Source: Dehalococcoidia bacterium (GTDB taxonomy: Bacteria; Chloroflexota; Dehalococcoidia; Lucifugimonadales; UBA3495). From it: a stretch of DNA of 48,858 nt. The notes under the pieces were generated by a model, which saw only the letters and a list, made by a program, of their open reading frames with translations, ran no database searches and was not told the DNA's origin. How positions within the stretch are numbered: position 1 is the stretch's first letter; every line of letters begins with the position of its first letter. This document shows, piece by piece, positions 16,492 to 37,437 of the stretch. The position numbers and the translations under genes were made by a program. The stretch is taken from assembly GCA_012959605.1 (NCBI GenBank), contig DUCU01000006.1:1-48858 (forward strand), written 5' to 3'.

Positions 16492-16770
16492 CGGTTCCCT
16501 CCTTTAATCGCAAACAAATATTGTTAAGCCAAGGGATTGCGAGACGATAATTCATTTTTTAACTGGATACATGCTACGGAGGGAGAAATAGTGTGTCAAG
16601 GATAGCAATCAATCATCTATCTGTGGATTATTGACGATATTCGCAAAACGAGCCTAAAATCCACGTTACATCTCTTGTCTCAGGTTCAACCAAGAGCCGG
16701 TCAAGTTTCTTGACTGCCTGGCTGCTGGCAATCGGTTATAGTGTCCCCAGCAAAAATCTTGGGAGGAACG

Positions 16771-17964
16771 ATGGTTGATCAATTAAGCAGGCCAAAAGAC
16801 ACCATGGACGTCTATTGGTTTTCTGAGCAGGCCCAAGGGTATATATCTGATGGTGAGCTGGAAAAATTTGAATCGGGACGTCTAGCGTTCCCCAACTCCC
16901 ATTTCGATCCTGAAAAAGCGCACAACCTCTACAACCAATACCACGAGCAGTACGCTCTGGCCGACGAGATAGGGTTCGACGGCATCATGACCAACGAACA
17001 TCACTCGGCGTATTGGTGTGGCAAACCGGCAGTCAACCTGGACGCTGCCGTGCTGACCAAGATCACCAAGAAGGTCAAAATCGCGATTCTAGGCAACGTC
17101 ATTGCGGTCAATGACCCCATCAGAATGGCCGAAGAGATTGCGATGCTCGACTGCTATTCCGGAGGGCGAATCATCTCAGGCTTCGTACGCGGTGGCGCGG
17201 TCGAGACCTTACAAGCAGGCATCGACCCCACCCAGAATCGGGAACGGTTTGAAGAGGCCCACGACCTGATCGTCAAATGCTGGACCGAGCCTGGCCCGTT
17301 CCGGTACGAGGGAAAGCACTACCAGTACCGGGTGGTCAATCCGTGGGTTATGCCCATGCAGAAACCCCGCCCAGATATTTGGTTCCCCGGCACTGGCAGC
17401 CCAGAGAGCGTGGTGTGGGCGGCCCAACACGGCCACCCCTACATGAACCTCGGCGCGGTCATGGATACCACCGAGTGGCTTAAACAGATCTACATCGACA
17501 CTGCCCTGGAAGCCGGATATAAAGCCGGCCCCGAGCACTTTGGCTACCTGCTAAAGGTTCTGGTCGCCGACACAGAAGAGAAGGCCCAGGAAATTGGCCG
17601 AAACTTCGTTTGGACGGAAGGACACCGACAGAGAGGACCCCGGGAACACGTGGACCCGCCCGGTTACCAGTCACGGGAGGCCGTTGCCGTGAAACGAGCC
17701 CGTCCCACCGGCGCTTTCGCCGGAAACATGGGACAGGCCCAGTCTTACGAGAACCAGCAAGAAGCCCGTATCGTAATCGTTGGCACACCAGACTCGGTGA
17801 TTGAAAAGCTGAAATACGTGGTTGAGAACCTCAGCCCTGGTTATATGCTTATTTACGGAAATGAAGGCCCCATGAAGCATGAAGACTCCATGCGGTCCAT
17901 CGAGCTACTGGGCAAGGAAGTCATCCCCGCGTTGAAGGAGATCAAGCTTCGGCCTTACGACTAA
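16771..17964 (+). CDS. LLM-class flavin-dependent oxidoreductase (luciferase-like monooxygenase)
   Basis: ATG 16771 has GGGAGG 4 nt upstream and is preferred over the in-frame GTG at 16741. The 397-residue protein has the bacterial-luciferase-like TIM barrel features: LADEIGFDGIMTNEHHSAYW, KVKIAILGNVIAVNDPIRMAEEIAMLDCYSGGRIISGFVRGGAVE, and IWFPGTGSPESVVWAA. These bind reduced flavin supplied by a reductase and insert oxygen into aliphatic, sulfonated or other substrates. SAR202 Chloroflexota are known for large expansions of such enzymes, which have been proposed to attack recalcitrant organic matter. The gene stands alone, ended by a hairpin at 17990. Confidence 0.88.
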   Translation: MVDQLSRPKDTMDVYWFSEQAQGYISDGELEKFESGRLAFPNSHFDPEKAHNLYNQYHEQYALADEIGFDGIMTNEHHSAYWCGKPAVNLDAAVLTKITKKVKIAILGNVIAVNDPIRMAEEIAMLDCYSGGRIISGFVRGGAVETLQAGIDPTQNRERFEEAHDLIVKCWTEPGPFRYEGKHYQYRVVNPWVMPMQKPRPDIWFPGTGSPESVVWAAQHGHPYMNLGAVMDTTEWLKQIYIDTALEAGYKAGPEHFGYLLKVLVADTEEKAQEIGRNFVWTEGHRQRGPREHVDPPGYQSREAVAVKRARPTGAFAGNMGQAQSYENQQEARIVIVGTPDSVIEKLKYVVENLSPGYMLIYGNEGPMKHEDSMRSIELLGKEVIPALKEIKLRPYD

Positions 17965-20980: not shown

Positions 20981-22234
20981 CTACGGGTGCATTCGGCTCA
21001 ACAAGGATTCTCTCCAAGCCTCGCCTTTGGAGTACATCCCTTCGGCTGCCCGTACGTGGTAGTACGTCGGCGCGACCCCCAATGGCTCCCCGTCGTCTTT
21101 GACTGTATCCATGGCCTGCTCCAAGAGCTTACGAGCTGCGACAATGGCAATGTCTGACGGCCCCAAGAACTCCAACGTCCGGTCAACTATCGAGCCCATA
21201 CTCTCTTGGATCGCCCGGTCTTGTGCGTTGATGCCATGAATGCCGGTGAATGTTTGGGTCTTTTGGACATCTCGGTCTAGCATGTAGTTGTTGTCCCGAT
21301 TGCGTATTGACCGGAAGCCATTGGCCGGGTCCACGTCTTCGTCCAAATTGTTGCCCGAATCTTTCAGTGCGCTCTCGTTTTCAGGTAGGGGATCGGCGCC
21401 CCAACTGTATCCAAAGTTGTAGACCATGACATTGTAATCGTCCATAGGCACCCAAAAATGGCCGTCGACTACCTCTTTCCCATAGCGACTGGGTCTGAGT
21501 TGGGTGAACGGCATCACGTATTGGTAGCCGCGCACGAATGTCTGATCCTCGCCTATTGGCCTTATACCAAAGTAACGGTAGCCATAGTCGGTGGTTTCCA
21601 CCTCTACGTCCGGAGCAGCCCCCTGAAGGAATGGGGAATTTGGAGAGATGCCCGGCTCATCGGTATCATCGGTCAATTTGCGATGCAAGATGGGGGCATG
21701 GGAGGTGTCGATCCCACCCTCCATTGCCTGAAGCCAGTTGCACTCCTGCCAGACTTTGGTCATGTACCGGTGGGTCTCCGGCGCTTTTGTTAGTTCGAAC
21801 TCAGGTGGGGCTGGTTTCTTATCCGGCGGGCCCAGATAAGCCCAGATTACTCCGCCCATATCCAGCGTCGGGTACGCAGTTATTTTGACCTGGTCATTGA
21901 ATTGTCGCGGCTCGTTCATTTGGTCAACGCAATTTCCGTCAACATCGAATTTCCAGCCGTGATAGACGCAACGAATTCCGCATTCTTCATTACGGCCAAA
22001 ATACAAGCTGGCGCGGCGGTGAGGGCAGGCTTCTTGAACGAGACCGACCAGACCATTGGTGTCACGAAATGCGAGCAAACTTTCGCCCATCAATGCCACC
22101 CGGACGGGAGGGCAATCAGGCTCAGGTATCTCAGTGGAAAGGAGAGCAGGTAGCCAATACCTGCGCATGGTTTCGCCCATGGGTGTTCCCTGGCCAACCC
22201 GGCTCAAGGAATCATTCAAAGCATGGTCCAGCAT
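20981..22234 (-). CDS. Rieske aromatic ring-hydroxylating oxygenase, large subunit
   Basis: The 417-residue protein carries a Rieske [2Fe-2S] site, C70-P-H72 and C89-V-Y-H92 (EACPHRRAS ... IRCVYHGWKF). The mononuclear iron site lies in LQAMEGGIDTSHAPILHR, with Asp176, His179 and His184. The N-terminus (GTPMGETMRRYWLPALLSTEI) is typical of the phthalate 4,5-dioxygenase/vanillate O-demethylase-like branch, which works as an oxygenase component with separate reductase proteins. No reductase or ferredoxin is encoded nearby. It lies 43 bp downstream of the VOC gene and is very likely co-transcribed. A ring hydroxylation or O-demethylation reaction is inferred; the substrate is unknown. Confidence 0.88.
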   Translation of the reverse strand: MLDHALNDSLSRVGQGTPMGETMRRYWLPALLSTEIPEPDCPPVRVALMGESLLAFRDTNGLVGLVQEACPHRRASLYFGRNEECGIRCVYHGWKFDVDGNCVDQMNEPRQFNDQVKITAYPTLDMGGVIWAYLGPPDKKPAPPEFELTKAPETHRYMTKVWQECNWLQAMEGGIDTSHAPILHRKLTDDTDEPGISPNSPFLQGAAPDVEVETTDYGYRYFGIRPIGEDQTFVRGYQYVMPFTQLRPSRYGKEVVDGHFWVPMDDYNVMVYNFGYSWGADPLPENESALKDSGNNLDEDVDPANGFRSIRNRDNNYMLDRDVQKTQTFTGIHGINAQDRAIQESMGSIVDRTLEFLGPSDIAIVAARKLLEQAMDTVKDDGEPLGVAPTYYHVRAAEGMYSKGEAWRESLLSRMHP

Positions 22235-22277
22235 TCTATATCTCCCAAATTGTTGACGTGTTCGGTGTCGTTATGTT

Positions 22278-22730
22278 TTAGGCTATTGCCCCTTGGCGAG
22301 ACCCACCAGTGAGAATTTCCTCAAGGGGGGTCTTCTCGAATTCAGGGGCATCGGCAAATAGCTCAATCTCAATGCCATCAGGGTCGCGGATGTATAGGCC
22401 TTTGGTCTCGCCGTGGTCGCCGAAGCCGGCAATATCGACTTTGTTGTCCAGCACAACCTGGTAGGCGTCTTTGAGTTCATCCATGTCTGCCAGTTCCCAG
22501 GCCATGTGGTACAGACCAACCTGGTCAGGGAAGGGTCCAACGGCGTTTGGGCCCAACTCTGCCAGAGCTATTTCGTGGTCTATCTCTGGGTTGCTGGTGA
22601 GGAAAACCATCTTGCCGCCCCGGGTGCGGTTTTTGACCTCCAATCCCAACACATCGTGATAGAAATCTTCAGAGCGCTTCGCGTCCCGCACTCTAATCAC
22701 CAAATGACCTAGCATTTTGGGTTTAATCAT
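22278..22730 (-). CDS. VOC-family dioxygenase/glyoxalase
   Basis: Start ATG 22730 is preceded by AGGTGAT; the longer frame to 22832 lacks a ribosome site and family similarity. The 150-residue protein has the vicinal-oxygen-chelate pattern with metal ligands His9 (MLGHLVIRV), His75 (GLYHMAWEL) and Glu123 (GIEIELFADAP). FYHDVLGLEV and GLYIRDPDGIEIELF are the typical strands of extradiol catechol dioxygenases and related isomerases. Beside a Rieske oxygenase, ring cleavage of a catechol-type product is a reasonable reading, though glyoxalase-like roles are equally possible. First gene of the operon, divergent from DUF1501 of cassette B. Confidence 0.85.
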   Translation of the reverse strand: MIKPKMLGHLVIRVRDAKRSEDFYHDVLGLEVKNRTRGGKMVFLTSNPEIDHEIALAELGPNAVGPFPDQVGLYHMAWELADMDELKDAYQVVLDNKVDIAGFGDHGETKGLYIRDPDGIEIELFADAPEFEKTPLEEILTGGSRQGAIA

Positions 22731-22995
22731 CGCATCACCTATATAATTCGGAATCTTGCAGTCAAAATCTGGAATTTCAATTTCGTTGGCGACAGTATAC
22801 AAGAGACCGCAAAATTGCTGTGGCGTCTGCATTTTACCGCTGGTTTAAATTATTCCTGGTCAGCGTCCCTTATAGGCCTCGAAAACGCTGCTAACAAAAG
22901 GTACAATATTGGCCTCTGATGGGCCGACATGTGAACAGGCATATTTGCAGAGAGAAAGCCGAATACCCACGTCCCCAAAACAGGAGTTCGCCCAC

Positions 22996-24129
22996 ATGAC
23001 CACCAACAAGCGTGAAAAGAGTCTGATTGTCATGCAGCTCTCGGGTGGCAACGACTATCTGAATACAATTGTCCCGTACGCCGAGGGCAAGTATTACGAC
23101 TCCCGCACCACGGTCAACATACCTCAGGATCGGGTGATTCCCATCAATGACCAGTTGGGATTCAACCCCAGCATGGGGCCGATCAAGGCTCTTTGGGACG
23201 AGGGGAAAGTCGCCGTGATCAACGGGATCGGCTATCAAAACCCCAACCGCTCCCACTTCCGCTCCATGGACATATGGCACACTGCAGAGCCGGACACCAT
23301 CGGCAAGGAAGGCTGGCTGGGGCGGGCGATTCGCGATATTGACCCCTTGGGCGAAAACGTGCTCACCGGCATCAACTTTGGCCGCGGCCTGCCCCGGGCT
23401 CTAGCCTGCCCCGGCGTGTCTGTAGCGTCAGTTGGTGATTTGGCGACCTACGGCCTGTTTCCCGACGTTCAGGATGAAGAGCTACGTATGTTCACCCTGG
23501 AGGCATTCTCCAAGATGTACGGCGGCGCCGCGGGACGAGACCCGGTGATGGACCTGCTGGGTCAAACCGGCAAGGACGCCCTACAAGGTGCAGACATCCT
23601 GCGGACGGCTCCCGGCATGTATTCATCAACGGTAGAATACGCCCCCGACGCCCTGGCACAAAACGTCAAGAGTATCTCCCAAGTGTTCCACGCAAACTTG
23701 GGCGCCAAGGTCCTCTACACCCAGCATGGACCGTTTGACACACACTCTGGAGAACTCCTCTCCCACGCCAAGTTGTGGAACGAAGTTGCCGGCGCGATCG
23801 GCTCCCTGATGGAAGACCTGAAAGAACACGGCACCGAAGATGACGCTACGATTTTGGTTTTCTCGGAGTTTGGCCGCCGCATCAAGGACAACGGCTCTGG
23901 CAGCGACCACGGCTCCGGTGGCGGCGCGTTTCTGATTGGTGGCGCGGTGAACGGCGGGCTGTACGGCGAATACCCGTCCCTGGCCGAGGCGGAACAGATC
24001 GAGGGCGACCTCCGCTCCAACAACGACTTCCGTTCCGTCTACACCAACATCCTGGAAGACTGGATGGGCCTGGACGCCGCGCCCATCGTCAACGGACAGT
24101 TCGAGAAGTTCGACGTATTCAAGTCGTAA
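22996..24129 (+). CDS. DUF1501 family protein, cassette B
   Basis: ATG 22996 follows AGGAG at 9 nt; the in-frame extension to 22909 is not supported. The 377-residue protein has the same landmarks as the other two copies: MQLSGGNDYLNTIVPYAEG, NPNRSHFRSMDIWHTAEP, HGPFDTHSGELL, and LVFSEFGRRIKDNGSGSDHG. It is visibly more divergent (roughly half identical by eye) from copies A and C than those are from each other. In this cassette DUF1501 comes first, before DUF1800. No Tat or Sec signal is seen. The 163-bp region upstream, shared with the divergent VOC gene, must contain its promoter. Confidence 0.88.
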   Translation: MTTNKREKSLIVMQLSGGNDYLNTIVPYAEGKYYDSRTTVNIPQDRVIPINDQLGFNPSMGPIKALWDEGKVAVINGIGYQNPNRSHFRSMDIWHTAEPDTIGKEGWLGRAIRDIDPLGENVLTGINFGRGLPRALACPGVSVASVGDLATYGLFPDVQDEELRMFTLEAFSKMYGGAAGRDPVMDLLGQTGKDALQGADILRTAPGMYSSTVEYAPDALAQNVKSISQVFHANLGAKVLYTQHGPFDTHSGELLSHAKLWNEVAGAIGSLMEDLKEHGTEDDATILVFSEFGRRIKDNGSGSDHGSGGGAFLIGGAVNGGLYGEYPSLAEAEQIEGDLRSNNDFRSVYTNILEDWMGLDAAPIVNGQFEKFDVFKS

Positions 24130-24171
24130 GTTCCTGAAACAACGTTTACCCAATTATTTATCCAATAGGGA

Positions 24172-25596
24172 ATGATGATGATAAGTAACGACACAGGTCT
24201 GATGGCCCATCTGCTTCGGCGCGCCGGTTTCGGCGCTACTCGTGACGAACTTGAAAAGTATCTTGCTCTGGGATACGAGGGCGCAGTAGAAGTTCTACTC
24301 AACCCTTCTGAACCCAACAACATGCCCGACGACCTGATCCGTCGCTACCACGTGGAGCAATCAGAGTTGCGTGACATAGCCGGTTCTGCTGCCTACTGGA
24401 TGTACCGCATGATCAGCACCTCGTGTCCGCTGGAGGAAAAGACCGCCCTCTTCTGGCACGGATTATTCGCCACCGGCTACGCCAAGTTGAACCAGGCCCG
24501 TTCATTGCTCAATCAGGTGGACATGTTCCGACGGTCCGGCATGGGTAGTTTTGAAGACCTGTTGGTGGAGTTGTCTCAAGACCCGGCCATGATCGTTTGG
24601 TTGGACAACATTGAGAACCATGGTTCAGCCATCAACGAGAATTTCGGACGTGAACTCCTGGAGCTCTTCTCCATGGGCATCGGGAATTACACAGAGGATG
24701 ACATCAAGGAATGTTCTAGGGCCTTTACCGGTTGGACCCTGGGCAATGCTGAATATATGTCCATCAGAGCTGCCAAGGACTCCATCTGGCCCTACGGACG
24801 TATCGCCTGGCACTTTGACTATCGGGAAGAAGATCACGACGACGGCGAGAAGACCTTCCTTGGAGAAACGGGCAACTTCAACGGCGAAGACATAATCGCC
24901 ATCATCGCCAAGCAAGAATCCACAGCCCAATTCGTGGCAACCCGGCTGTTCCAATTCTTTGCCGCTGATGAAGTCACCGAATACGGAGAGAAGGCCATCC
25001 AGGCCATGATGGAAACCTATTTCTCCTCCGGCTACCAGGTCCGTGATATGTTGCGAACCCTGTTCCACTCCGATTATTTCAAGTCGGAGGAAGCCCGTTA
25101 CGCCCGCGTTAAGAACCCGGTGGAGATGGTGGTCGGCGCCATCCGCATGGCCGGCAGCTACCAAAATCCAGCCCTTGGCATCGAGAATGTGTCCCGGAAC
25201 ATGCTATTCATGGGCCAGGGCCTGCTTCAGCCACCGACGGTTGAAGGCTGGCATGAGGGCTCCGAATGGATTGACAGCGGCGCGTTGGTGGAACGGGTGA
25301 ACTTTGTCGCAAAAGAGCTGTCCAACGTCAAAAGCCCTGGCGTGCGCTCCATCATCGACCGCCTTGAAGCGGGATCAGACGCCGGGATACTTGACCCGGA
25401 TGAACTGGCTGACGGTTGCTTGGACTTGCTCGGCCCTATAGAGGTCTCCGAGGCCACACGGTCTGTGTTGGTGGAATATGCCGCACGCCTTGGTAACCTG
25501 GATCTGAAAGATCATCTACAGGGCGACCTTGCCGAGCAACGGGTCGGTAATATGCTCCGGCTGGTGGCGGCCACTAGGGAATATCAGCTGGCTTAA
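24172..25596 (+). CDS. DUF1800 family protein, cassette B
   Basis: A 474-residue protein starting at one of three consecutive ATGs (24172, 24175, 24178; AATAGGG upstream), reading ISNDTGLMAHLLRRAGFG. It keeps EEKTALFWHGLFATGYAKL, NENFGRELLELFSMGIGNYT with EDDIKECSRAFTGWTL, EDHDDGEKTFLGETGNFNGE and LLQPPTVEGWHEGSEWIDSG. It is slightly longer than the 467-residue copies because of inserts around NAEYMSIRAAKDSIWPYG. It lies 42 bp after DUF1501 and 24 bp before the NHL gene, so all three are surely one transcript. Function unknown; see the DUF1501 partner. Confidence 0.88.
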   Translation: MMMISNDTGLMAHLLRRAGFGATRDELEKYLALGYEGAVEVLLNPSEPNNMPDDLIRRYHVEQSELRDIAGSAAYWMYRMISTSCPLEEKTALFWHGLFATGYAKLNQARSLLNQVDMFRRSGMGSFEDLLVELSQDPAMIVWLDNIENHGSAINENFGRELLELFSMGIGNYTEDDIKECSRAFTGWTLGNAEYMSIRAAKDSIWPYGRIAWHFDYREEDHDDGEKTFLGETGNFNGEDIIAIIAKQESTAQFVATRLFQFFAADEVTEYGEKAIQAMMETYFSSGYQVRDMLRTLFHSDYFKSEEARYARVKNPVEMVVGAIRMAGSYQNPALGIENVSRNMLFMGQGLLQPPTVEGWHEGSEWIDSGALVERVNFVAKELSNVKSPGVRSIIDRLEAGSDAGILDPDELADGCLDLLGPIEVSEATRSVLVEYAARLGNLDLKDHLQGDLAEQRVGNMLRLVAATREYQLA

Positions 25597-25620
25597 TCTC
25601 TCCTGACCAAGGGAGCCCAT

Positions 25621-26652
25621 GTGAGCACGCAGACCAAATCTCCAGGCATCAGCTTGGATTACGTAAAAACCATTGGCATCGTCAATAACGGCTTCAATGG
25701 CCGGGGCTTTGCCAATCCCTATGACATAATCGCCGACGATGACGGCCAAATTTTCGTGTTGAACCGCTGTGACCCGGCTCGCGCCTCCGCCATCCGCATC
25801 GGTATCTGCAACCTGGATGACGAATACCTCGGCGAGTTTGGGCGCGGCAACGGCTCTGGCGACGGACAGTTTAACTGGGCCGTAGCAATGGCTCTAGATA
25901 GCCAAGGAAACCTGCACATTACCGACGAGTACAACCACCGCGTAACGACCTACACCACAGCGGGCGAATATGTTTCCCACTGGGGTACGCCGGGATCAGA
26001 AGACGGAGAACTGAACGGCCCGGCGGGGATAGCCTTTGATTCTGCCGACAATCTGTTTGTAGTAGACCAGCATAATTCCAGGGTCCAAAAATTTTCAGTT
26101 GATGGAACTTTCATCGCCAAATGGGGGAGCTCCGGCAGCGGCGATGGCAAATTCAACCTGCCCTGGGGTATCGCGGTGGACAGCGACGACAATGTGTACG
26201 TCGCCGACTGGCGGAACGACCGCATCCAAAAGTTCAGCAATGATGGCAAGTTCATCGCGGTGTTTGGCAGTTCCGGCCAAGGCGAAGGCCAGTTCCAGCG
26301 GCCCACAAGCATCACCGTAGATTTAGAAGGATTCATCTATGTGGCCGACTGGGGCAATGAACGCGTCCAGGTGCTGGCCGGCGACGGCAGCTTCCAGTTG
26401 CTACTAAAAGGCGAAGCCACGCTCTCCAAATGGGCCGACGAATACCTGGCCTCCAATCCGGAAGAAAAAGCCGAGCGGGACGTTTCCAACCTGACTCCTA
26501 ACCTACCGGCCCACCTGAACACCCCCTACCACACCTCATCCCAGACAGAGCCTTATTTCTGGGGGCCGGTCTCTCTGACTCTGGACAATCAAGGCCGACT
26601 CTACGTGGTTGAGACCAACCGGCACCGCTTCCAGGTCTACCAGAAGCGCTAA
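25621..26652 (+). CDS. NHL-repeat beta-propeller protein, cassette B
   Basis: GTG 25621 follows AAGGGAG at 6 nt; the overlapping ATG gives an immediate stop. The 343 residues form about six NHL repeats, such as FNLPWGIAVDSDDNVYVADW and GPAGIAFDSADNLFVVDQHN, with the blade ending -NRVQKFS. The N-terminus (ISLDYVKTIGIVNNGFNGRG) and the last linker (EEKAERDVSNLTPNLPAHL) differ clearly from copies A and C, while the propeller core is conserved. No signal peptide. It is the third gene of cassette B, as in the other two cassettes. Confidence 0.85.
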   Translation: MSTQTKSPGISLDYVKTIGIVNNGFNGRGFANPYDIIADDDGQIFVLNRCDPARASAIRIGICNLDDEYLGEFGRGNGSGDGQFNWAVAMALDSQGNLHITDEYNHRVTTYTTAGEYVSHWGTPGSEDGELNGPAGIAFDSADNLFVVDQHNSRVQKFSVDGTFIAKWGSSGSGDGKFNLPWGIAVDSDDNVYVADWRNDRIQKFSNDGKFIAVFGSSGQGEGQFQRPTSITVDLEGFIYVADWGNERVQVLAGDGSFQLLLKGEATLSKWADEYLASNPEEKAERDVSNLTPNLPAHLNTPYHTSSQTEPYFWGPVSLTLDNQGRLYVVETNRHRFQVYQKR

Positions 26653-27010: not shown

Positions 27011-27934
27011 ATGCGTATCGCAATTCCGGACTTGATATCGAACTCTTATTTCCCTGCAGTGGCGGCGGTTGAACTCGGATTTTTCAAAGCGGAGGGTTTA
27101 GACGCTGAACTGGAATTGATATTTCCCGTCCCGAAAACCATGGAAGACCTGCGGGACGGCAAGTTGGACTTCGTGGCCGGCGCTGCCCACGCCACCCTGC
27201 AGGCGTTTCCCAATTGGAAGGGCGCCAAACTACTGGCAACCTTGGCCCAAAACACCTACTGGATGCTGGTGCTCCGATCTGATTTGAACGTAGAGATGGG
27301 CGATGTGGAAGCGGTGAAAGGCCTTAGGATTGGGGCTGCACCCGGTCCGGATTCAACCATCCGGCAACTTTTGGTTGAATCTGGAATCGACCTTGAAAAG
27401 GACAAAGTGTGGGTTGGTCCTGTTCCAGGATCCACCGGGGCTGGCGTTTCTTTTGGAGTAAACGCAGCCAAAGCCTTGGAAGAAGGCGTTATCGACGGAT
27501 TCTGGGCCAACGCCATGGGCAGCGAGGTGGCCGTCCGAAGCGGAATTGGCACCGTAGTGCTCGACGCCAGGCGCGGCATCTGCCCTCCGGCTGCGGTGCA
27601 CTATACATTTCCGGCGCTTGTCACATCCGACAAAGTAATCGAAAAAGACCCGGAGAGCGTGCGTGCTGCCATCAGGGCAATCGTGAAAGTTCAAAAGGCT
27701 CTCAAGGAAGACCCTTCCCGGGCGACCGCAGTTGGGGAGAAACTATTTCCGGCCATGGAGGCGTCAATGATTGCCGGTCTGATCGAAAGAGACCTGCCTT
27801 TTTACGACCCCATGATTTCCGAAGATAAAGTAAACGGCATGAACGGGTTTGCCAAAGAGATAGGACTTCTAACGGAGACCGTTACCTACGATCAAGTTGT
27901 GGCCACGGAATTTATCAGCCTCTGGACCGAGTAG
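27011..27934 (+). CDS. NMT1/THI5-like (NitT/TauT-type) substrate-binding protein without signal peptide
   Basis: The 307-residue protein follows the periplasmic-binding-protein type 2 pattern of the NMT1/SsuA family: SNSYFPAVAAVELGFFKAEGLDAEL, MEDLRDGKLDFVAGAAHATLQAF, LATLAQNTYWMLVLRSDL, KGLRIGAAPGPDSTIRQLL and ALEEGVIDGFWANAMGSEVAV. Such proteins deliver pyrimidine precursors, sulfonates, nitrate or aromatic acids to ABC importers. Here the Met at 27011 (AGGAGG upstream) leads straight into the first strand with no export signal, and no permease or ATPase lies nearby. It may be cytosolic, a ligand sensor or enzyme-like, or truncated at its N-terminus. It is convergent with the CoA-transferase pair. 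Confidence 0.75.
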   Translation: MRIAIPDLISNSYFPAVAAVELGFFKAEGLDAELELIFPVPKTMEDLRDGKLDFVAGAAHATLQAFPNWKGAKLLATLAQNTYWMLVLRSDLNVEMGDVEAVKGLRIGAAPGPDSTIRQLLVESGIDLEKDKVWVGPVPGSTGAGVSFGVNAAKALEEGVIDGFWANAMGSEVAVRSGIGTVVLDARRGICPPAAVHYTFPALVTSDKVIEKDPESVRAAIRAIVKVQKALKEDPSRATAVGEKLFPAMEASMIAGLIERDLPFYDPMISEDKVNGMNGFAKEIGLLTETVTYDQVVATEFISLWTE

Positions 27935-27955: not shown

Positions 27956-29227
27956 CTAGATAGCCCCGGTCTTCTGCAACGCTTCCAGACCGGTCTTGGA
28001 AATGCCCAACTCGCCACCTAGTATTTCCTCATTGTGCTCGCCAATTAGCGGTGCGCGACGAGTTATGCGCCAGGGCGAGGCGTTGTAGATGGCCGCCCCG
28101 CCAGGATAGGTAAACTCCTGGCCCAACTCTGGGTGCTCCACAGACACGAAAAACTCCCGGTCTTCTAGGTGCGGGTCGCCCATGATCTCTTCCATGGTGC
28201 GAACCGCTCCCCAGGGGAAGTTCAGTTCTTGCCCGCCTTCATAGGCTTCCACCAGCGGCATGTTGGCAAAGAAGTTTTTCAGGACGTCAGCGAAATGCTG
28301 GCCCGCTTCCTCAACTACCTTCAGGTCTTGGTACTTGTCATCCAAGAGGTCATCCGCCAGCCCGTGCTCGTCCATCCACGATGCCAGAACCTTGATTCTG
28401 GCCGGGGTGAGGTTGCTACCCGAACGGGTGGTGTTGATAAAGCCGCCGTCATTGGTGGCATGCTGGATGCCAGGGGACATGTCAACGGATGCATGCCGAC
28501 CGGTATGTCGACGCACCACGTCACCAGTTGAGAGGTAGATCGCGATCGCGCCCTCGGTGGTCAGTGAGCAGGCTTCGTGGACTGAAACATCGATGTATTG
28601 CCCTTCTCCGGTGAAATCCCGGTGGTAGAGCGCGCCCATAATCCCAATGTACGCGTAGTGGCTGGCGATATGCCAGGCGTTGCCGCCACCAGGCGCGATG
28701 GGCGGAGCGTCGGGTATGTCTTCCACGTCATATCCAGATGATGCCATCTGCCCGCCCGCTCCCAGATGCAACAGATCGGTTGTCTTGTAGTCTCGCCAGG
28801 GACCGTCCTGCCCAAAGGGCGTAACCGAACACATGATCAGTCCCGGGTTGTTCTCCGATAGCGCCTCGTACCCCAAGCCGATACTTGGTAGGTAACCGGC
28901 AGGGAAGCTCTCTAGAATCAGAGTCGCTGTGGCGGCGAGTTTCTTGAAGACTTCTTGTCCCTCGGGCAGGGTGATATCCAAGGTCAAACCCCGTTTCGAG
29001 GTGTTGTAATGCCAGAAGTAAAGGCTGCGCTCCAGGTGTTCTTCGTCTTTTAGGAACGGGCCAACCTTCCGGGTTTCTTGTCCGCCCGGCGGTTCAATCT
29101 TAATCACATCTGCGCCCAGGTCGGCCATTAACTTGCCGCAGAATTGGGCGTGCTCACCGGTCAGTTCCAGGACCCGCACACCAGCCAAAGGGCCTGGCAG
29201 ATTATTTTCAGTATTGGTCGAGGTCAT
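27956..29227 (-). CDS. Family III (CaiB/BaiF) CoA-transferase, subunit lacking the catalytic Asp
   Basis: The 423-residue protein has the CaiB/BaiF fold: LAGVRVLELTGEHAQFCGKL, LGADVIKIEPPGGQETRKVG, LILESFPAGYLPSIGLGYEAL, and the end RRAPLIGEHNEEILGGELGI. In active members an Asp before the IGxxxAL helix carries the acyl group. Aligned by eye from the ALxHR anchor, this protein has His186 there (GNAWHIASHYAYIG). Its ATG overlaps the stop of the upstream CoA-transferase gene by 4 bp (ATGA), indicating translational coupling. By analogy with benzylsuccinate CoA-transferase (BbsEF), it may be the non-catalytic subunit of a heteromer. Confidence 0.85.
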   Translation of the reverse strand: MTSTNTENNLPGPLAGVRVLELTGEHAQFCGKLMADLGADVIKIEPPGGQETRKVGPFLKDEEHLERSLYFWHYNTSKRGLTLDITLPEGQEVFKKLAATATLILESFPAGYLPSIGLGYEALSENNPGLIMCSVTPFGQDGPWRDYKTTDLLHLGAGGQMASSGYDVEDIPDAPPIAPGGGNAWHIASHYAYIGIMGALYHRDFTGEGQYIDVSVHEACSLTTEGAIAIYLSTGDVVRRHTGRHASVDMSPGIQHATNDGGFINTTRSGSNLTPARIKVLASWMDEHGLADDLLDDKYQDLKVVEEAGQHFADVLKNFFANMPLVEAYEGGQELNFPWGAVRTMEEIMGDPHLEDREFFVSVEHPELGQEFTYPGGAAIYNASPWRITRRAPLIGEHNEEILGGELGISKTGLEALQKTGAI

Positions 29228-30591
29228 TTTCTCGCCTCTTCAATCGCCTGTTCAACGTAGGGGAACTTGGGAGTTGTTTCCGGCCAGAACACGCCTTCGT
29301 CGTAGCCTTCCAGCAGTTCCGCGTTACTCATACCCAGCAGGTCGCCCATGATGCTCGTGGTGTGCTGTCCAATCATTGGTGGCGGACCTTTCACGGCAAT
29401 TTTATTGCCGTCCAGACGGAAGGGAGCGCCTTGGAACTTCCAATCACCCAACATGGGGTGATTCACCTCGGTGAACATGCCTCGGTGGCGAAGCTGAGGG
29501 TCGTTCTCAACACGGTCTTCAGAGCTCTGCACCGGCATGGCCCGCACACCGGCAGCCTGGCACACGTCAGCCAGTTCGTACTTGGCCAAAGTGCTGGTCC
29601 ATTCCTCTATGCCTTTGTCCATCTCGTCCTGGTTGGCCAGACGACCTTTCAGGGTCGAGAATTTGCTATCTTTGGCCCAAGCTGGGCTGCCTAGGACTTC
29701 AATTAGAGTGGTCCATTCGTCATCAGAAAGGCAGGCGATGACACACCAATCGTTGTAGCCGCCGCCAAGCGTGCGGTAAGCGTTGTGGGGGGCGGCGATG
29801 GGGCCGCGGTAGTTGTTCATCACCGGAGCGCCAGGCCAGACCGTCCGATTACCGGGTGGATAGCCTTTCCGCCGTGACTCCCGGCCGTTAATTGACTTAT
29901 CCAAGAACGCCGAGCCGGTGAGGGTGATGCCGGTAATCATTTGGGACAGGTCAACGTGCTGGCCTTGACCAGTGTTATTGCGGTGCTTGAGGGCGGTCAG
30001 CGCGCACATTGCGCCGTACATTCCGCCGGTGTCATCCAGGTAAGACCAGCCCCAACCGGCGGGTTGTTCGCCGGGCAGGCCAGACAGATGGGTAAGCCCA
30101 GACAACGCCTGAGCGGCCGGCCCCATTGTGCCAAAGTAGTGTTGGCGTCCCGTCTGACCAAAACCAGCCATGGAGACATAGACGACGTCCGGTCGCAGTT
30201 TCTTCAGTTCCTCGTAACCCAAGCCCCAACGCGACATGATACGTGAGCTAAAATTCTCGATGACCACGTCGGAGACCGAGATCAGACTCTTGATGGCGTC
30301 CAGGCCCTTGGGATGGCGGACGTTAATCGAGAGGCCCAACTTCCCTGCGTTGGTGTCGGCAAACTGGCCGGTGGAGTTTGGTCCCGGCTCCACACCCGGA
30401 GGCACGGTGAACCGGTTCAGCCGAAGCATGTCCATGTTCTCCGGCCACTCTACCTTGATTACTTCCGCGCCCAAGGTGGCCAGCCAGCGGGCTGCCCACG
30501 GTCCTGCCCGGACCCAAGTGAAGTCCACGACGCGGACTCCCTCCAGTGGTTTGTCTTTGCGACGCTTGCCGTTCTGATTGTCAGCCTGCAT
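29224..30591 (-). CDS. Family III (CaiB/BaiF) CoA-transferase, catalytic-type subunit
   Basis: The 455-residue protein begins LEGVRVVDFTWVRAGPWAAR and LGAEVIKVEWPENMDMLR, has VVIENFSSRIMSRWGLGYEE and VYVSMAGFGQTGRQHYFG, and keeps the catalytic Asp in WSYLDDTGGMYGAMCALTAL (D186/D187). GQGQHVDLSQ follows. Such enzymes move CoA between carboxylic acids (formyl/oxalate, carnitine, benzylsuccinate, mesaconate types). The ATG at 30591 follows GAGGA. Gene order HAD, then this gene and its Asp-less partner downstream, with thiolase and DUF35 further upstream on the same strand, suggests a CoA-thioester degradation module. Substrate unknown. Confidence 0.88.
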   Translation of the reverse strand: MQADNQNGKRRKDKPLEGVRVVDFTWVRAGPWAARWLATLGAEVIKVEWPENMDMLRLNRFTVPPGVEPGPNSTGQFADTNAGKLGLSINVRHPKGLDAIKSLISVSDVVIENFSSRIMSRWGLGYEELKKLRPDVVYVSMAGFGQTGRQHYFGTMGPAAQALSGLTHLSGLPGEQPAGWGWSYLDDTGGMYGAMCALTALKHRNNTGQGQHVDLSQMITGITLTGSAFLDKSINGRESRRKGYPPGNRTVWPGAPVMNNYRGPIAAPHNAYRTLGGGYNDWCVIACLSDDEWTTLIEVLGSPAWAKDSKFSTLKGRLANQDEMDKGIEEWTSTLAKYELADVCQAAGVRAMPVQSSEDRVENDPQLRHRGMFTEVNHPMLGDWKFQGAPFRLDGNKIAVKGPPPMIGQHTTSIMGDLLGMSNAELLEGYDEGVFWPETTPKFPYVEQAIEEARK

Positions 30592-30635: not shown

Positions 30636-30980
30636 TTACTTGAGCCAGGGCTCTGAAACAGCTTCGTCGGGCCAGAAGAATTCGAATCCTGCGGCCAACG
30701 CATATTGCTTATCGAGGTCTTCTCGGTCTCCTATGTGGTAGTAGACATCGGCCTCGAATTTGGCTTTAACATCGGACAGTTGGTGTTTGGAAACAGCAAA
30801 GTCATAGGCAATACCATGCTTTTCCCAAATAGCTCGCTGTCCACTGATGGGACGGTCAGAGCAACTGCCGACGATTATCCCTGCCTCTTGGGTCTTGCGG
30901 ACTAATTCCATGGTCAGTACGCCAGGAGGATCACCCACCTCCAGAGTACCGTCGATATCGAAACTTATGAGTATAGCCAA
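30636..30980 (-). CDS. HAD-superfamily hydrolase, short form
   Basis: A 114-residue protein with HAD motif I FDIDGTLE (Asp8 and Asp10), motif II region VGSCSDRP, and a late GDREDLDKQYALAAG with the acidic motif IV. It is shorter than most HAD phosphatases and lacks a cap domain, so it resembles minimal C0 members. The start is TTG 30980; an in-frame TGA lies a few codons upstream and GAGGAGAG sits about 12 nt away. It is encoded between the thiolase and CoA-transferase genes on the same strand, 44 bp before the latter. A phosphatase or housekeeping role is likely. Confidence 0.75.
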   Translation of the reverse strand: MAILISFDIDGTLEVGDPPGVLTMELVRKTQEAGIIVGSCSDRPISGQRAIWEKHGIAYDFAVSKHQLSDVKAKFEADVYYHIGDREDLDKQYALAAGFEFFWPDEAVSEPWLK

Positions 30981-31107: not shown

Positions 31108-32439
31108 TTAGTCTGGGGTTGCGCTCCACACTGTGAAGTTGCCACCCATGGGCATGGGACCACCCGATACGCCAATCTCAGGCTTCACACCGGTTATGGT
31201 GCGGGCTCCGGCCCTCCCCTGTATCTGCTGGATGCAGTCTGTGTGCATCCAGAACCGGCTGCGGCCACTGCCAATGTTGCCGCCGCTGGGAAGAACTGGG
31301 TCTGGCCCCTCGATGCTGATGTCTTTCTGGTAGAAGTCCAGCGCGTCTCCGTTCTGCATCCCCCGGTAGCGGAGGCCTTCCAAATGGAACTGGTGGAACA
31401 GTGCGAAGCCGTCGTACATATTCTCAAAAGAAAGGTCGGCAGCGGTGATTCCAGCGCCCTCATAGATCTTGCGACCTGTTGACGCGGTTTCCGCTTCAAC
31501 CTCATCCAGGGTTGGTAGAATGCTGCGCTGGGTGCCTCTGCTCGAGGCATGGTTGATGATATAAACGGGCTTCTGCTTCATGTCCTTAGCGCGCTCGGCG
31601 GTGGTGAACAGGTAAGCGCCAGAAACCATGATTGGAATGTCGTTATCAAATAGATTCGCCGGTTTGGCGATCCAACGGGCGTTCAGGTAGTCCTCTTCCG
31701 TCAGATGCTCTGGCCGGTGCTGGGCCCAATAGCCTTCCGGGAACAGCAGGCCGTTGCGCCTGGAGTTCGACATGAACGGGGCCATCATATCGTGGGATTT
31801 GCCGTACTTGCGGCAGTACTCGGCAAATTGTAGAGCCGTACCATAGGAGCCAGGAGCGCCCCAAAGTGTGCGACCCGGAGCCATGGCAAAGCTGCCTGGA
31901 ACGGACTCTGAAGCGCTGATACCGGCCTGGTTGTAGCGGCCTTCCAGGTTGTGCCAGCTCTTGAGCACCAGGCAAGTGTGAGTACGGCCTTCGCCAACGG
32001 CCTGAGCCGCCACGACGATGGCATGAGACATACAGCCGGGGCCATACATGGTGAACTTAACGTTCGATAGCTCCGGCATGTTCTTCAGAATCCACTCGGC
32101 GCTCAGCTTGGCGATACCGTCCAATGGGTCGTCGGTCTGGTTGTAAGCGTTAACCACATCCATTGGGATGGGGTCGCCTTCCGGCCAGTGCGCGCCGGTG
32201 GTGGTTACGGGGTCAAGCACCAGACCATCGATCTGGCTCGGGTCAACGCCGGCGTCTGCAATCGCCTGTCTCAGTGCAAAGATGCTATTGGCGCCCATGG
32301 TGTTTTCGGCGGTTCCGTCCCAGCGTCTGGTAGTTGGCGAGTGGCCAACACCGACGGCTGCTACTTTGCCTTTATGTTCCCAGACTCCCAGCCCCTCGGT
32401 TGTTCGGTACATGGAAGCTGGAGCATTTTCTGTAGCCAT
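31108..32439 (-). CDS. SCP2-type thiolase/lipid-transfer protein
   Basis: The 443-residue protein has the thiolase fold: KVAAVGVGHSPTTRRWDG at the start, LRQAIADAGVDPSQIDGLVL, MYGPGCMSHAIVVAAQAVGEG, where Cys136 sits at the nucleophile position, LSFENMYDGFALFHQFHLEGL, and GGNIGSGRSRFWMHTDCIQQIQGRAG near the end. This branch (SCP2-thiolase, Ltp-like) works with a separately encoded DUF35 protein, which is the next gene upstream here (32515). Known pairs are BbsB/BbsA (benzoylsuccinyl-CoA thiolase) and Ltp2/ChsH2 (steroid side-chain retro-aldolase). AGGAG precedes ATG 32439. Confidence 0.88.
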   Translation of the reverse strand: MATENAPASMYRTTEGLGVWEHKGKVAAVGVGHSPTTRRWDGTAENTMGANSIFALRQAIADAGVDPSQIDGLVLDPVTTTGAHWPEGDPIPMDVVNAYNQTDDPLDGIAKLSAEWILKNMPELSNVKFTMYGPGCMSHAIVVAAQAVGEGRTHTCLVLKSWHNLEGRYNQAGISASESVPGSFAMAPGRTLWGAPGSYGTALQFAEYCRKYGKSHDMMAPFMSNSRRNGLLFPEGYWAQHRPEHLTEEDYLNARWIAKPANLFDNDIPIMVSGAYLFTTAERAKDMKQKPVYIINHASSRGTQRSILPTLDEVEAETASTGRKIYEGAGITAADLSFENMYDGFALFHQFHLEGLRYRGMQNGDALDFYQKDISIEGPDPVLPSGGNIGSGRSRFWMHTDCIQQIQGRAGARTITGVKPEIGVSGGPMPMGGNFTVWSATPD

Positions 32440-32514: not shown

Positions 32515-32925
32515 CTAGCCTATTACTCGCCATTCAGGGACTTTCTGACCGTTGGCTGTCTCCTCAAATATCACTTCCACGGCGGCACCAACGGGGACAT
32601 CGTCCACCGGAGTGCCGGGAAGGTGGGAGTACATCTGAATGCCAGAGTCTTCATCCAGCGTTATGACTGCCAGGTTGAACGGCTGATCCTGTTGCAACAA
32701 CCTAACGGGGCAGTCATAGACCACACCGTAGTTGTAGATCGTGCCCTTGCCACTCATAAGTTTCCATTCCAAGTTGTCGCCAGACTTACATCGTGTGCAG
32801 GCCGCCACCGGGGGATTGTGGAGCCGGTTACAGGCGCTGCAATTTTGTATTTCCAATCTGCCTGCATTGGCGGCGTCCCAAAATGGTTTCGACAAATCGT
32901 CGGGTATCACACCCTGTTTTACCAT
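32515..32925 (-). CDS. DUF35 Zn-ribbon/OB-fold acyl-CoA-associated protein
   Basis: ATG 32925 has AGGTGGG 4 nt upstream and is preferred over GTG 32934. The 136-residue protein has FWDAANAGRLEIQNCSACNR, a zinc ribbon (C29, C32, C43, C46) and then an OB fold: WKLMSGKGTIYNYGVVYD, FNLAVITLDEDSGIQMYSHL and VPVGAAVEVIFEE. This is the DUF35/OB_aCoA_assoc family, partner of SCP2-type thiolases and aldolases, where it helps bind the CoA substrate. It is the first gene of the minus-strand run DUF35, thiolase, HAD and CoA-transferase pair. Confidence 0.88.
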   Translation of the reverse strand: MVKQGVIPDDLSKPFWDAANAGRLEIQNCSACNRLHNPPVAACTRCKSGDNLEWKLMSGKGTIYNYGVVYDCPVRLLQQDQPFNLAVITLDEDSGIQMYSHLPGTPVDDVPVGAAVEVIFEETANGQKVPEWRVIG

Positions 32926-33077
32926 AATTCCCACCTACTTCTGAATTTTATTGAGCGTAATTGATAACAAAGGTTTTACCGAGTCAACAATATTAACATT
33001 TCCCGATTATGTCAAAACCTAATGGTAGCGAGTTTAGATGTAATTGGCGGTGCCGACCGTTGATCAGTAAAAGTCCA

Positions 33078-33550: not shown

Positions 33551-33770
33551 TGAAACGGAGTATAGCGTTTAAAAACCGTCCCCGCCAGAATGCCTCGACA
33601 CTCTTGAACTACCAACTGACGGATCTTCAATAATTGAGCGTACCGGTGGCCTGCGACATTGACACTTTCAAGCGCCAAACCTACGATGTCTTAGATTGCT
33701 TTATACGTGCTGACCTTACTCATCGGCACGGTTTCTAATGCGCCTTGGCGCTATATTCGGAGATTCGAGC

Positions 33771-35174
33771 ATGCCCACCAAACAAGACATTGCCCTGATC
33801 GCCCATTTGATGCGACGCGCCGGCTTCAGCGAGCCACGTGCCGACCTCGTAGCTCGCGCCGACAAGGGCTACGAAGCTGTTGTCGAGGAACTGCTCCACC
33901 CGGAAGACCAGCCTCCAATTGATGAAGAGCTGATGTATCGGATCCTTCCGGGCTACGAAGGCGCTCTCGGCCCGCCAATCAGCCAGGCTGATTGGATGTT
34001 CCGGATGGTCAACACTCAGCGCCCATTAGAAGAAAAAATCGCACTGTTTTGGCATCAGATGTTTGCCACCAGTAACTCTAAAGTGGACAACCCGCCGGAG
34101 ATTGGCCGCCAGATTGCTATGTTCCGGGAGTATGGACTGGGCAAATACGGTGAGCTGTTGGTTGAATTGGCCAAGTCGCCCGCCATGATTTTCTGGCTGG
34201 ATAACCACGGCAACCACGACGGTTCCATCAATGAGAACTGGGGCCGGGAATTGTTGGAACTCTTCTCCCTTGGAGTGGGCAACTACACCGAGGACGATAT
34301 CAAAAGTGCCGCCAGGGCCTTCACTGGCTGGACCATTGCCCCTAAGATTCCCCGGAATCCCCTAGGCCGTTTCTTCTGGAATTTTGAGTACAAACCCGAG
34401 GATCACGACGACGAAGAAAAGACGTTCTTGGGTCACACGGGAAACCTGAACGGCGAAGACATCATGGGCATCATCGTGGACCAACCAGCTTCGCCACGGT
34501 TCTTGGCCCGACACCTCTACAGGTTCTTTGTTGCTGACGAACCAGACGTTTCTAGTTGGAGTTCCACACCACCCAACGACCCTGCAGCCATCGAGATTCT
34601 GGTTGACGCTTACAACGAATCACATGGAGATATAAGGGCAATACTGCGGGTGCTATTCAACTCTGACTTTTTCAAGACCTCCCAGTTTGCCAGGGTCAAG
34701 AGCCCGGCTGAGCTAATTGTCGGCACTGTGCGCATGGCCGGGAACTATGAAGGGTTCAGGCCCGGATTCAACAACCTGGCTCTAGAGTGCGCATGGCAGG
34801 GACAGGAACTGCTCAACCCGCCCAGCGTGGAAGGTTGGCACACTGGCGCGGCCTGGATCGACGCTGGTGCATTGATGCGCCGTGTCAATTTCGCGGCGGG
34901 TGTCCTGGGAGATATTTCCCACCCTGGTGTCCGAGCAATCGTCGACCGGGTCCAGTTGCAACCGAACAACTCGGCACAAACCATGGTCGCCGTTTGCCTC
35001 GACTCCATAGGACCGCTGCAGGTCAGCGACACAACCCTGAAAGAACTACTCAGCCACGCCCTAAAGGGCGGGGAATTAGCCTGGAACACGCCCGAAGAGA
35101 TCAGCTCCTCAGAAGATAGAGTGAGCAAATTATTAGCCCTGATTGCCGCCTCAAAAGACTATCAATTCGCCTAA
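33771..35174 (+). CDS. DUF1800 family protein, cassette C
   Basis: ATG 33771 (MPTKQDIALIAHLMRRAGF) has GGAG 8 nt upstream and matches the start of copy A (MPDKEQIALMGHLMRRAGF), so the longer frame to 33738 is rejected. The 467 residues equal copy A in length and share nearly all landmarks: LFWHQMFATSNSKVDNPPEI, NENWGRELLELFSLGVGNYT, EDHDDEEKTFLGHTGNLNGE and PPSVEGWHTGAAWIDAG. It is the first gene of cassette C, 49 bp before DUF1501, in the same order as cassette A. No export signal. Function unknown. Confidence 0.88.
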   Translation: MPTKQDIALIAHLMRRAGFSEPRADLVARADKGYEAVVEELLHPEDQPPIDEELMYRILPGYEGALGPPISQADWMFRMVNTQRPLEEKIALFWHQMFATSNSKVDNPPEIGRQIAMFREYGLGKYGELLVELAKSPAMIFWLDNHGNHDGSINENWGRELLELFSLGVGNYTEDDIKSAARAFTGWTIAPKIPRNPLGRFFWNFEYKPEDHDDEEKTFLGHTGNLNGEDIMGIIVDQPASPRFLARHLYRFFVADEPDVSSWSSTPPNDPAAIEILVDAYNESHGDIRAILRVLFNSDFFKTSQFARVKSPAELIVGTVRMAGNYEGFRPGFNNLALECAWQGQELLNPPSVEGWHTGAAWIDAGALMRRVNFAAGVLGDISHPGVRAIVDRVQLQPNNSAQTMVAVCLDSIGPLQVSDTTLKELLSHALKGGELAWNTPEEISSSEDRVSKLLALIAASKDYQFA

Positions 35175-35223
35175 CCCAGGTCGCCTAGCCAAACACCCGG
35201 AATAACTCCGGGGGAGATAGATA

Positions 35224-36360
35224 ATGGCAACAACATCCAAAGACCCCGTCCTGGTCATACTGCAACTCACCGGGGCCAACGATTATCTGAACACGATTGT
35301 TCCCTATACCAACGGCCATTACTGGGACGCACGACCCAAAGTCAACATCCCGGCCGATCAGGTGGTGCCCATTGACGACGATCTAGCTTTCCGGTCGGAT
35401 ATGGATCAGTTCAAAGATATCTACGACAAAGGCAATATGGCCATCGTCCACGGCGTCGGATTTGAGAACTCGCCTCGGTCGCATTTTAGGGCAATGGACA
35501 TTTGGCACACCTGTGAGCCGGACAAGATCGGCACCGACGGCTGGGTGGCCAAGGTAATCAGAGACCTGGACCCCACCGGGGAAAACGTGCTGAAGGGTGT
35601 GAACTTTGGACAAGGTCTGCCCAGGGCAATGACCATGCGTGGTGTGCCGATCACCTCTGTTAATCACCTGGCGACCTACGGCGTGTTCTCATCGGTCTCC
35701 GGGATTAACTCTCAAGACGAACGAACCCAGCTTCTGGACAGCTTTGCTCGGATGTACTCCCCAGCCATTGGCAATGGACTCACCATGGAATACATAGGTC
35801 AGACCGGACTGGATGCTTTGAGGGGCGCCGACATCATCAAGGTTGCTCCTCAGCAGTATTCGTCGACTGTCGAGTACGGCAGCACGTCGATTGCGACCAG
35901 CCTGAAGGACGTGGCCCAGGTGCACTTAGCGGGCCTGGGCACTCAGGTTTTCTACACCTCGCACGGCCCCTTTGACACCCACTTCAACCAGGGCGGCTCC
36001 CACGCTAAGCTCTGGATCGACATCTCCGAGGCCGTGGACAGTTTCTTCGCCGATCTCCAGGAGCACAACGCCAGCGAAAACGTGGTGATGATGATCTTCA
36101 GTGAGTTTGGCCGCCGCGTCCGCGACAACGGTACCGGCACCGACCACGGAGCAGCCGGTGTTGCCTTTGTCATTGGCGACCGAGTCAAGGGCGGAATGTA
36201 CGGAGCGTACCCTTCGCTGAAACCTGAAGACCTCACCCAGGGAGACCTGGAACCGAACTACGACTTCAGAGGCTTGTACTCCACGATAGTGGACAAGTGG
36301 ATGGGTCTGGACGCCGTGCCAATAGTGGGCGGTCAGTTCGAACAAATGTCGTTCGTCTAG
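35224..36360 (+). CDS. DUF1501 family protein, cassette C
   Basis: The 378-residue protein starts MATTSKDPVLVILQLTGAND; GGGGGAGATAGATA precedes the ATG. It keeps FENSPRSHFRAMDIWHTCEP, SHGPFDTHFNQGGSHAKLW and IFSEFGRRVRDNGTGTDHG. Length equals the cassette A copy, and by eye about 70% of residues are the same; the DNA at the 5' ends also aligns without gaps at roughly three-quarters identity. No Tat signal. It is followed after 78 bp by the NHL gene. Alkaline-phosphatase-like metal chemistry is inferred from the fold family; no substrate is known. Confidence 0.88.
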   Translation: MATTSKDPVLVILQLTGANDYLNTIVPYTNGHYWDARPKVNIPADQVVPIDDDLAFRSDMDQFKDIYDKGNMAIVHGVGFENSPRSHFRAMDIWHTCEPDKIGTDGWVAKVIRDLDPTGENVLKGVNFGQGLPRAMTMRGVPITSVNHLATYGVFSSVSGINSQDERTQLLDSFARMYSPAIGNGLTMEYIGQTGLDALRGADIIKVAPQQYSSTVEYGSTSIATSLKDVAQVHLAGLGTQVFYTSHGPFDTHFNQGGSHAKLWIDISEAVDSFFADLQEHNASENVVMMIFSEFGRRVRDNGTGTDHGAAGVAFVIGDRVKGGMYGAYPSLKPEDLTQGDLEPNYDFRGLYSTIVDKWMGLDAVPIVGGQFEQMSFV

Positions 36361-36438
36361 AACACACGGGCATTACGGGCGGGAATATAATTTTTTTTTG
36401 GGCGGGCCTGTTTTGGGTCAGCCTTTTGGAGAGCCGCA

Positions 36439-37437
36439 GTGCTGACAACAGTCGCCGCCGGTCGGGTTTTCGATTACAGCCATTGCATCGGAATGTACAG
36501 CCAGTCTGGCCAGGGATTCTGGACTCCCCAGGATTTTGTATTGGGCAAGAATGGCCGTGTCTATGTACTGAGCCGTGGTGTGGAACAGCTAGGCCAAAGG
36601 GTCAGTAAGATCAGCCTTGACCATGAGTTCCAAGGCCAGTTTGGGTCATTCGGCGGTGAAGACGGACGCTTTATCTGGCCTCGCTCAATAGACGTTGACC
36701 AGGACGGACGCGTCTACGTTTCCGACGAATTTACCAACCGCATTTCTGTATTTGACGCCGAGGGCGCTTTCCGCTTTAACTGGGGCCGGTTTGGCACCGA
36801 TGATGGTTTGCTGAGCGGTCCATCAGGGATCGCCTTCGACTCGCAAGACGACCTCTGGGTAGTCGACAGCCTGAACCACCGGGTGCAACGCTTCGCCAAG
36901 ACCGGTGGGTTCAAGTCGAATTTCGGCCAACAGGGCACTGAAGACGGAAGCTTTGAAATGCCTTGGGGCCTCTGCATCGACCGTAACGACGATATTTACG
37001 TGGCCGACTGGGGCAACAACCGCGTGCAGAAATTCTCCCCGGACGGAAAGCTGCTGGTGAAATTTGAGGGTACGTCAAACGGACTGGGTTCGCTAAAAGG
37101 GCCTTCCGGCGTGGCCGTGGACTCAGAAGGCGACGTATACGTGACCGACTGGGGTAATCACCGCGTTCAGATTTATGATGCCGATGGCCGTTACATCACA
37201 ACCTTGGTGGGAGATGCCCAAGAACCGTCACCCTGGACGCAGACCTACATCAACGCCAACCCCGAGATGATTAAGGCCAGACGGCGGGCCGACATGGAAC
37301 CAGAATGGCGCTTCCGCAGGCCTGTGGCGGTGAATGTCGACGCCGATGACAGGATTGTAGTCTTAGAGTCATACCGCCACCGACTTCAAATCTACAACAA
37401 GCTCAAGGACTACCAGGAACACTCGCTGAACCTGTAG
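36439..37437 (+). CDS. NHL-repeat beta-propeller protein, cassette C
   Basis: GTG 36439 (MLTTVAAGRVFDYSHCIG) has GGAG upstream and aligns with the start of copy A. The 332 residues equal copy A in length and contain about six NHL blades, for example FEMPWGLCIDRNDDIYVADW and GPSGVAVDSEGDVYVTDWG. The conserved tail ARRRADMEPEWRFRRPVAV and YQEHSLNL is shared with copy A but not B. No signal peptide. It is the third gene of cassette C and is convergent with the SMP-30 gene 23 bp away. Confidence 0.85.
   Translation: MLTTVAAGRVFDYSHCIGMYSQSGQGFWTPQDFVLGKNGRVYVLSRGVEQLGQRVSKISLDHEFQGQFGSFGGEDGRFIWPRSIDVDQDGRVYVSDEFTNRISVFDAEGAFRFNWGRFGTDDGLLSGPSGIAFDSQDDLWVVDSLNHRVQRFAKTGGFKSNFGQQGTEDGSFEMPWGLCIDRNDDIYVADWGNNRVQKFSPDGKLLVKFEGTSNGLGSLKGPSGVAVDSEGDVYVTDWGNHRVQIYDADGRYITTLVGDAQEPSPWTQTYINANPEMIKARRRADMEPEWRFRRPVAVNVDADDRIVVLESYRHRLQIYNKLKDYQEHSLNL

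Follow-up and report, generated by a model that had tools for sequence, protein, structure and literature searches.

Two overlapping genes in the window, the whole 48,858-nucleotide stretch of DNA analysed here, raise the question of whether neighbouring CoA-transferase genes encode two enzymes or the two parts of one. Both lie on the minus strand: the first (29224-30591) encodes a protein of 455 residues and the second (27956-29227) one of 423 residues, the stop codon of the former and the start codon of the latter sharing an ATGA at 29224-29227. A sequence-only reading of this DNA had described this overlap, assigned both genes to family III and likened the pair to the heteromeric BbsE/BbsF; overlap and family hold, the CoA_transf_3 profile spanning the full length of both proteins (E = 6.4e-96 for the 455-residue and 2.7e-75 for the 423-residue protein). 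Both score under the curated cut-off of the formyl-CoA transferase model TIGR03253 (196.9 and 157.9 bits versus 504.2). The window corresponds to contig C6 in a genome of 2.81 Mb (91.7% complete), and the nearest named relatives of the 423-residue protein among the matches listed, at 83-91% identity, are from SAR202-cluster and other Chloroflexota/Dehalococcoidia MAGs, on which basis the host is very likely a SAR202-type bacterium. The evidence set out below suggests that the two genes encode subunits of a single heteromeric family III (Frc-type) CoA-transferase, to which we give a probability of about 0.85.

The active site was located in an alignment of every CoA-transferase domain in the genome, to which fragments of 9fn0 (BbsEF, chains A and B), human SUGCT and 4ed9 were added. 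The column of the catalytic Asp is occupied by Asp186 (codon 30034-30036), the first Asp of YLDD, in the 455-residue protein and by Trp185 (TGG, 28673-28675) in the 423-residue protein, both 18 residues before the Arg of the ALxHR anchor. The first Asp of YLDD is the right one, since the BbsEF entry 9fol carries a D178-CoA adduct in its PDB title and this residue in chain B, number 173 of the aligned fragment (which starts at residue 6), sits in that column; our statements on 9fn0, 9fol and 9fun rest on their PDB names, sequences and titles. The sequence-only reading had correctly picked out the Asp in YLDDTGGMYG of the first protein and its loss from the second, but the residue it placed there, His186, lies 17 residues before the Arg and thus pairs with Asp187, the second Asp of YLDD. 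We therefore rejected His186 as the residue at the Asp position, since the full-domain alignment and the ALxHR spacing both put Trp185 there. Aligned with SUGCT, BbsEF and the others, one subunit has Asp in its active site, not both.

The same arrangement recurs throughout this genome. Its 49 PF02515 matches were read as 45 ORFs, comprising 15 adjacent pairs, three two-domain fusions, 11 unpaired genes and one fragment (on C40, left out of the residue table). Exactly one member has Asp at the column in every one of the 15 adjacent pairs, the partners having Gln (four), Trp, Glu, Leu or Tyr (two each) or Phe, His or Gly (one each), and Asp is present in all 11 unpaired CoA-transferases. Were the 30 proteins, 15 of them Asp-less, paired at random, 15 one-Asp pairs out of 15 would arise with a probability of about 2e-4.

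The closest paralogue of the window pair in the genome is itself a fusion of both halves, an 883-residue protein encoded on the minus strand of contig C60 (G000:C60:7301-9952, locus L043). Asn183 (AAC) and, in the second half, Trp occupy its Asp column, so neither half has Asp there; an 88% identical counterpart, L136, has the Asp. The other two fusions (G000:C85:66311-68740 and C92:23495-25801) read Cys/Asp and Ser/Asp at the column and fall outside the paired clades described below. They possibly represent an independent origin of the one-Asp design, and may be of the kind of DddD and PtmU4, which by the description available from PMC6006322 have two CoA-transferase domains per chain, as do the fused relatives of the window pair. 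A further CoA-transferase ORF (G000:C23:13700-15112) carries its Pfam pieces in swapped order, with profile positions 153-320 before 1-205, and may be the remnant of a fusion.

Pairing extends well beyond this genome. Genome contigs were scanned with an alignment of the Asp-less subunit, and the figures that follow refer to the best 80 loci of more; Asp-type and Asp-less-type groups at these loci were set by HMM score, not by residue. The 82 Asp-less-type domains found there have an Asp-type partner in tandem in 58 cases and fused in 16 (Asp half first in 14 of the 16), and no partner was seen for eight. Six of these eight are near contig ends, L163 and the inner L194 hold Asp-type fragments, and one, L181, is a clear solo, an Asp-less-type gene with no partner within 13 kb. 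Both sides could be read in 73 pairs, of which 71 are Asp/not Asp, one is Asn/not Asp (L139) and one is Asp/Asp (L169). Trp (35) and Tyr (33) account for most column residues in the 82 Asp-less-type domains, followed by Asn, Ser and Gly (three each), Ala (two) and Phe, Asp and Met (one each). The exceptions are of two kinds. At L122, L126 and L139, which come from two genomes that belong to a single genus and from an alphaproteobacterial MAG, the Asp-type subunit has Asn; at L123 and L169 the Asp-less-type subunit carries Asp. It is possible that the former are dead pairs and the latter reversions. Our two sets of relatives share some genomes, and their counts are not summed.

Phylogenetic trees were built with the Asp column masked, leaving out the C23 ORF and the partial 4ed9. 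In the tree of the genome's own proteins, a single branch (support 100/99) sets apart the 15 Asp-less subunits, the C-terminal half of the C60 fusion and BbsEF chain A, and a second (100/99) does so for the 15 partners, the N-terminal half of C60 and BbsEF chain B; the unpaired enzymes and SUGCT are outside both groups. Adding the Aromatoleum pair, two Variovorax sets and two actinobacterial fusions kept both groups, now of 22 rows each, at 100/99. A tree of 121 rows, to which E. coli FRC, YfdE and CaiB and 27 of the 80 loci, hand-picked for spread, were added and from which domains of 330 residues or fewer were left out, again sets apart 51 Asp-less-type rows at one branch (support 99) and their 51 partners at a second (100). 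None of the 51 Asp-less-type rows has Asp at the column; among the partners 49 have Asp and two have Asn. The trees make the Asp-less type one old clade spread over several phyla.

The two subunit trees also mirror one another. Mirror-tree correlations were 0.66 for the 15 pairs of this genome and 0.81 for the 51 pairs, the two pairs of L185 being matched crosswise in the latter, and neither value was reached in 20,000 permutations; the C119 pair does not follow this pattern. Unpaired enzymes share 94 conserved columns. If a column counts as kept when at least half of the rows retain it, 17 of these survive in the Asp-less type alone and 11, including the catalytic Asp, in the Asp type alone. 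Each subunit has thus lost some of the ancestral positions, which is what the survival of a single composite site would lead one to expect. On these trees each subunit has its place in one of two ancient sister-subunit lineages, of which BbsE/BbsF and very likely SptA/SptB are also members.

The nearest structures sort to the right subunits. The best PDB match of the catalytic subunit is 9fn0 chain B (E = 2.7e-67), followed by SUGCT (2.8e-50), and that of the Asp-less subunit is 9fn0 chain A (4.6e-58, the next at 1.9e-37). An AF2 model of the Asp-less subunit (pLDDT 83.8, pTM 0.80) likewise has BbsEF chain A as its top PDB match (Z 34.1), tied with SUGCT (33.4). As a proxy for the heterodimer, the natural fusion L136 gave a weak AF2 model (pLDDT 67.3, pTM 0.75). 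BbsEF, a benzylsuccinate CoA-transferase that a PDB title names as succinyl-CoA-dependent, is the one solved member of the lineage, and like the window pair it consists of two family III subunits, with Asp (D178) in chain B and another residue, Tyr, at the column in chain A. The window partner differs in having Trp at this position, and its likeness to BbsEF is distant (31-33% identity by structure alignment). Furthermore, the window pair sits on another branch in both subunit trees, grouping with C60 and the actinobacterial fusions, and 9fn0 groups with a Variovorax pair. No glycyl-radical domain (PF01228) was found in the 91.7% complete genome; control genomes gave matches. Given its separate branch and the lack of any glycyl-radical match in this genome, we conclude that the pair is not BbsEF itself, and the role in toluene degradation by fumarate addition that the comparison with BbsE/BbsF had brought with it is rejected on the same grounds.

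A second relative is SptAB, the succinyl-CoA:phthalate CoA-transferase of Aromatoleum aromaticum EbN1. Two adjacent overlapping genes on plasmid 2 of this organism (L209) have Tyr152 and Asp177 at the column and fall in the two subunit clades. Their record says only CoA transferase, and they are very likely SptAB, a name that we take from what PMC11659651 offers and from the UbiD/UbiX context. They differ from the window pair in that the Asp-less gene comes first and that they adjoin UbiD/UbiX decarboxylase genes, not a DUF35-thiolase set. Formyl-CoA transferase (FRC), CaiB, YfdE, SUGCT and mesaconyl-CoA transferase are homodimeric family III enzymes of the same fold. Those placed in the 121-row tree, FRC, YfdE and CaiB from E. 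coli and SUGCT from human, keep the Asp and lie outside both paired clades. Most likely, then, the window pair is of a design already known from BbsEF and SptAB, in which a heteromeric CoA-transferase has one working subunit. The heteromeric reading first proposed from the letters is supported by the sorting of the PDB matches, the single clade of each type, the mirrored trees, the fusions and the reciprocal loss of columns.

An alternative that we consider unlikely is that the pair is a heteromer of another activity, i.e. a racemase, isomerase or lyase built on the fold shared by AMACR, mesaconyl-CoA transferase and the two-domain DddD. AMACR and the mesaconyl-CoA transferases do have this fold, DddD is described as both CoA-transferase and lyase in what is available of PMC6006322, and the neighbouring genes name no substrate. 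However, racemases match both proteins far more weakly, and BbsEF, by its PDB title, and SptAB, in the part of PMC11659651 at hand, are named succinyl-CoA-dependent CoA-transferases. It is more improbable still that these are two independent homodimeric CoA-transferases adjacent by chance, the second using another residue such as His186 as nucleophile or base. A His does follow the Asp position in 12 of 12 aligned fusions (W647-H648) and in close relatives, but it is not kept in the wider Asp-less lineage, where motifs such as GYMI, GYNI and QAQF are found, and the natural fusions, the one-Asp-per-pair rule and the mirrored trees point to a single enzyme, BbsEF being a solved two-subunit enzyme of exactly these two lineages. 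That the second gene is a decaying copy heading for loss, as the missing Asp might suggest, is scarcely credible, and we rejected the pseudogene reading because the gene is full length, is conserved in five SAR202 relatives (83-91% identity) and at the other 75 of the best 80 loci (39-69%), has Trp185 in all close relatives among the matches listed and belongs to an old clade spanning several phyla.

The genes upstream of the pair suggest a CoA-dependent degradation step. In the same direction, on the minus strand, lie a DUF35/ChsH2-like Zn-ribbon OB-fold protein (32515-32934), a thiolase-like/lipid-transfer (Ltp2-type) protein (31108-32439) and, between the thiolase and the catalytic subunit, a small ORF of 114 residues (30636-30980) with weak similarity to DUF7124, below the Pfam cut-off. 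The order DUF35, thiolase, small ORF and pair is kept in five close relatives among the matches listed (L127-L130 and L151), and L165 has the same five genes rearranged. Homologues of the small ORF occur in nine of the best 80 loci, at the same place in L127-L130 and L151, and it is probably a real gene. The Firmicutes isolates L166, L168 and L171 have four consecutive genes, for thiolase, DUF35, Asp subunit and Asp-less subunit. Within this genome DUF35 and thiolase genes lie within about 1.5 kb of each other at seven places, three of which (C6, C14 and C85) adjoin a CoA-transferase pair or fusion. Of the best 80 loci, 15 have a same-strand thiolase gene no more than 1.2 kb from the pair and also a DUF35 match, so the link is real for some branches and not general. 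The thiolase is closer to the Ltp2-type entries 9myr and 6ok1 (1.2e-16 and 2.9e-15) than to the BbsAB entry 7pxp (4e-4), and the DUF35 protein scores 24.4 bits against the BbsA model, whose cut-off is 250; a benzoylsuccinyl-CoA thiolase of the BbsAB type was accordingly rejected as the closest kin.

Other genes of the window were noted alongside. An NMT1/THI5-like substrate-binding protein gene (27011-27934, plus strand) converges on the Asp-less subunit gene, and its product may supply substrate to the pair. The CoA-transferase cluster lies between two sets of DUF1501, DUF1800 and NHL-repeat genes (22909-26652 and 33738-37437), which suggests a duplicated module. At 20981-22832 a Rieske oxygenase gene (LigXa_C) adjoins a glyoxalase-family gene, and at 16741-17964 there is a luciferase-like monooxygenase gene of a kind reported to be enriched in SAR202.

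By analogy with the family, the two subunits would interlock as in other family III dimers, and Asp186 would attack an acyl-CoA donor, for which succinyl-CoA is the best guess. From the resulting acyl-Asp anhydride, CoA would then be handed on to a carboxylic acid as acceptor. Each dimer would have a single working site out of two possible ones, with the partner providing interface and pocket. The neighbouring genes suggest that the new CoA ester would go on to the DUF35-thiolase-like enzyme (Ltp2/ChsH2 type) for C-C cleavage, the whole serving in the breakdown of some organic acid by the SAR202 bacterium.

An abundance of such proteins in SAR202 has been reported before: the material available from PMC5395668 describes five single-cell genomes that together hold 62 CaiB/BaiF proteins of one family, DddD being the top hit of some of them, and that from PMC6306507 describes sponge symbionts as likewise rich in CaiB/BaiF proteins. 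The portions of these two papers at hand contain no mention of pairing among the SAR202 proteins. In the marine genome studied here the two-part design recurs about sixteen times, and it is also found in other bacterial phyla. On balance we lean towards a broader reading, by which the one-Asp heteromer has a single ancient origin, has since reached several phyla and has repeatedly been joined into one chain. The swelling of SAR202 CaiB/BaiF proteins would in this genome then be mostly a radiation of such heteromers (15 tandem pairs and at least one fusion, compared with 11 unpaired genes), each probably tuned to another organic acid, and the window pair with its DUF35, thiolase and small ORF would be one degradation module of that radiation.

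In genome surveys each CaiB/BaiF gene counts as one enzyme. Should the pairing rule hold, about a third of the CoA-transferase domains of this genome would be obligate partners, not enzymes alone; the Asp-less set makes up 18 of 48 domains or fragments (15 tandem partners and three fusion halves), the genome would have closer to 30 than to 48 distinct CoA-transferases, and expression tests on single genes would fail. The pairs offer a rule for annotation, namely adjacent or fused CoA-transferases with one Asp, and the natural fusions form a convenient set for structural work. The design itself is known, and the interest lies mainly in one old and widespread lineage that dominates the CoA-transferase set of this genome.
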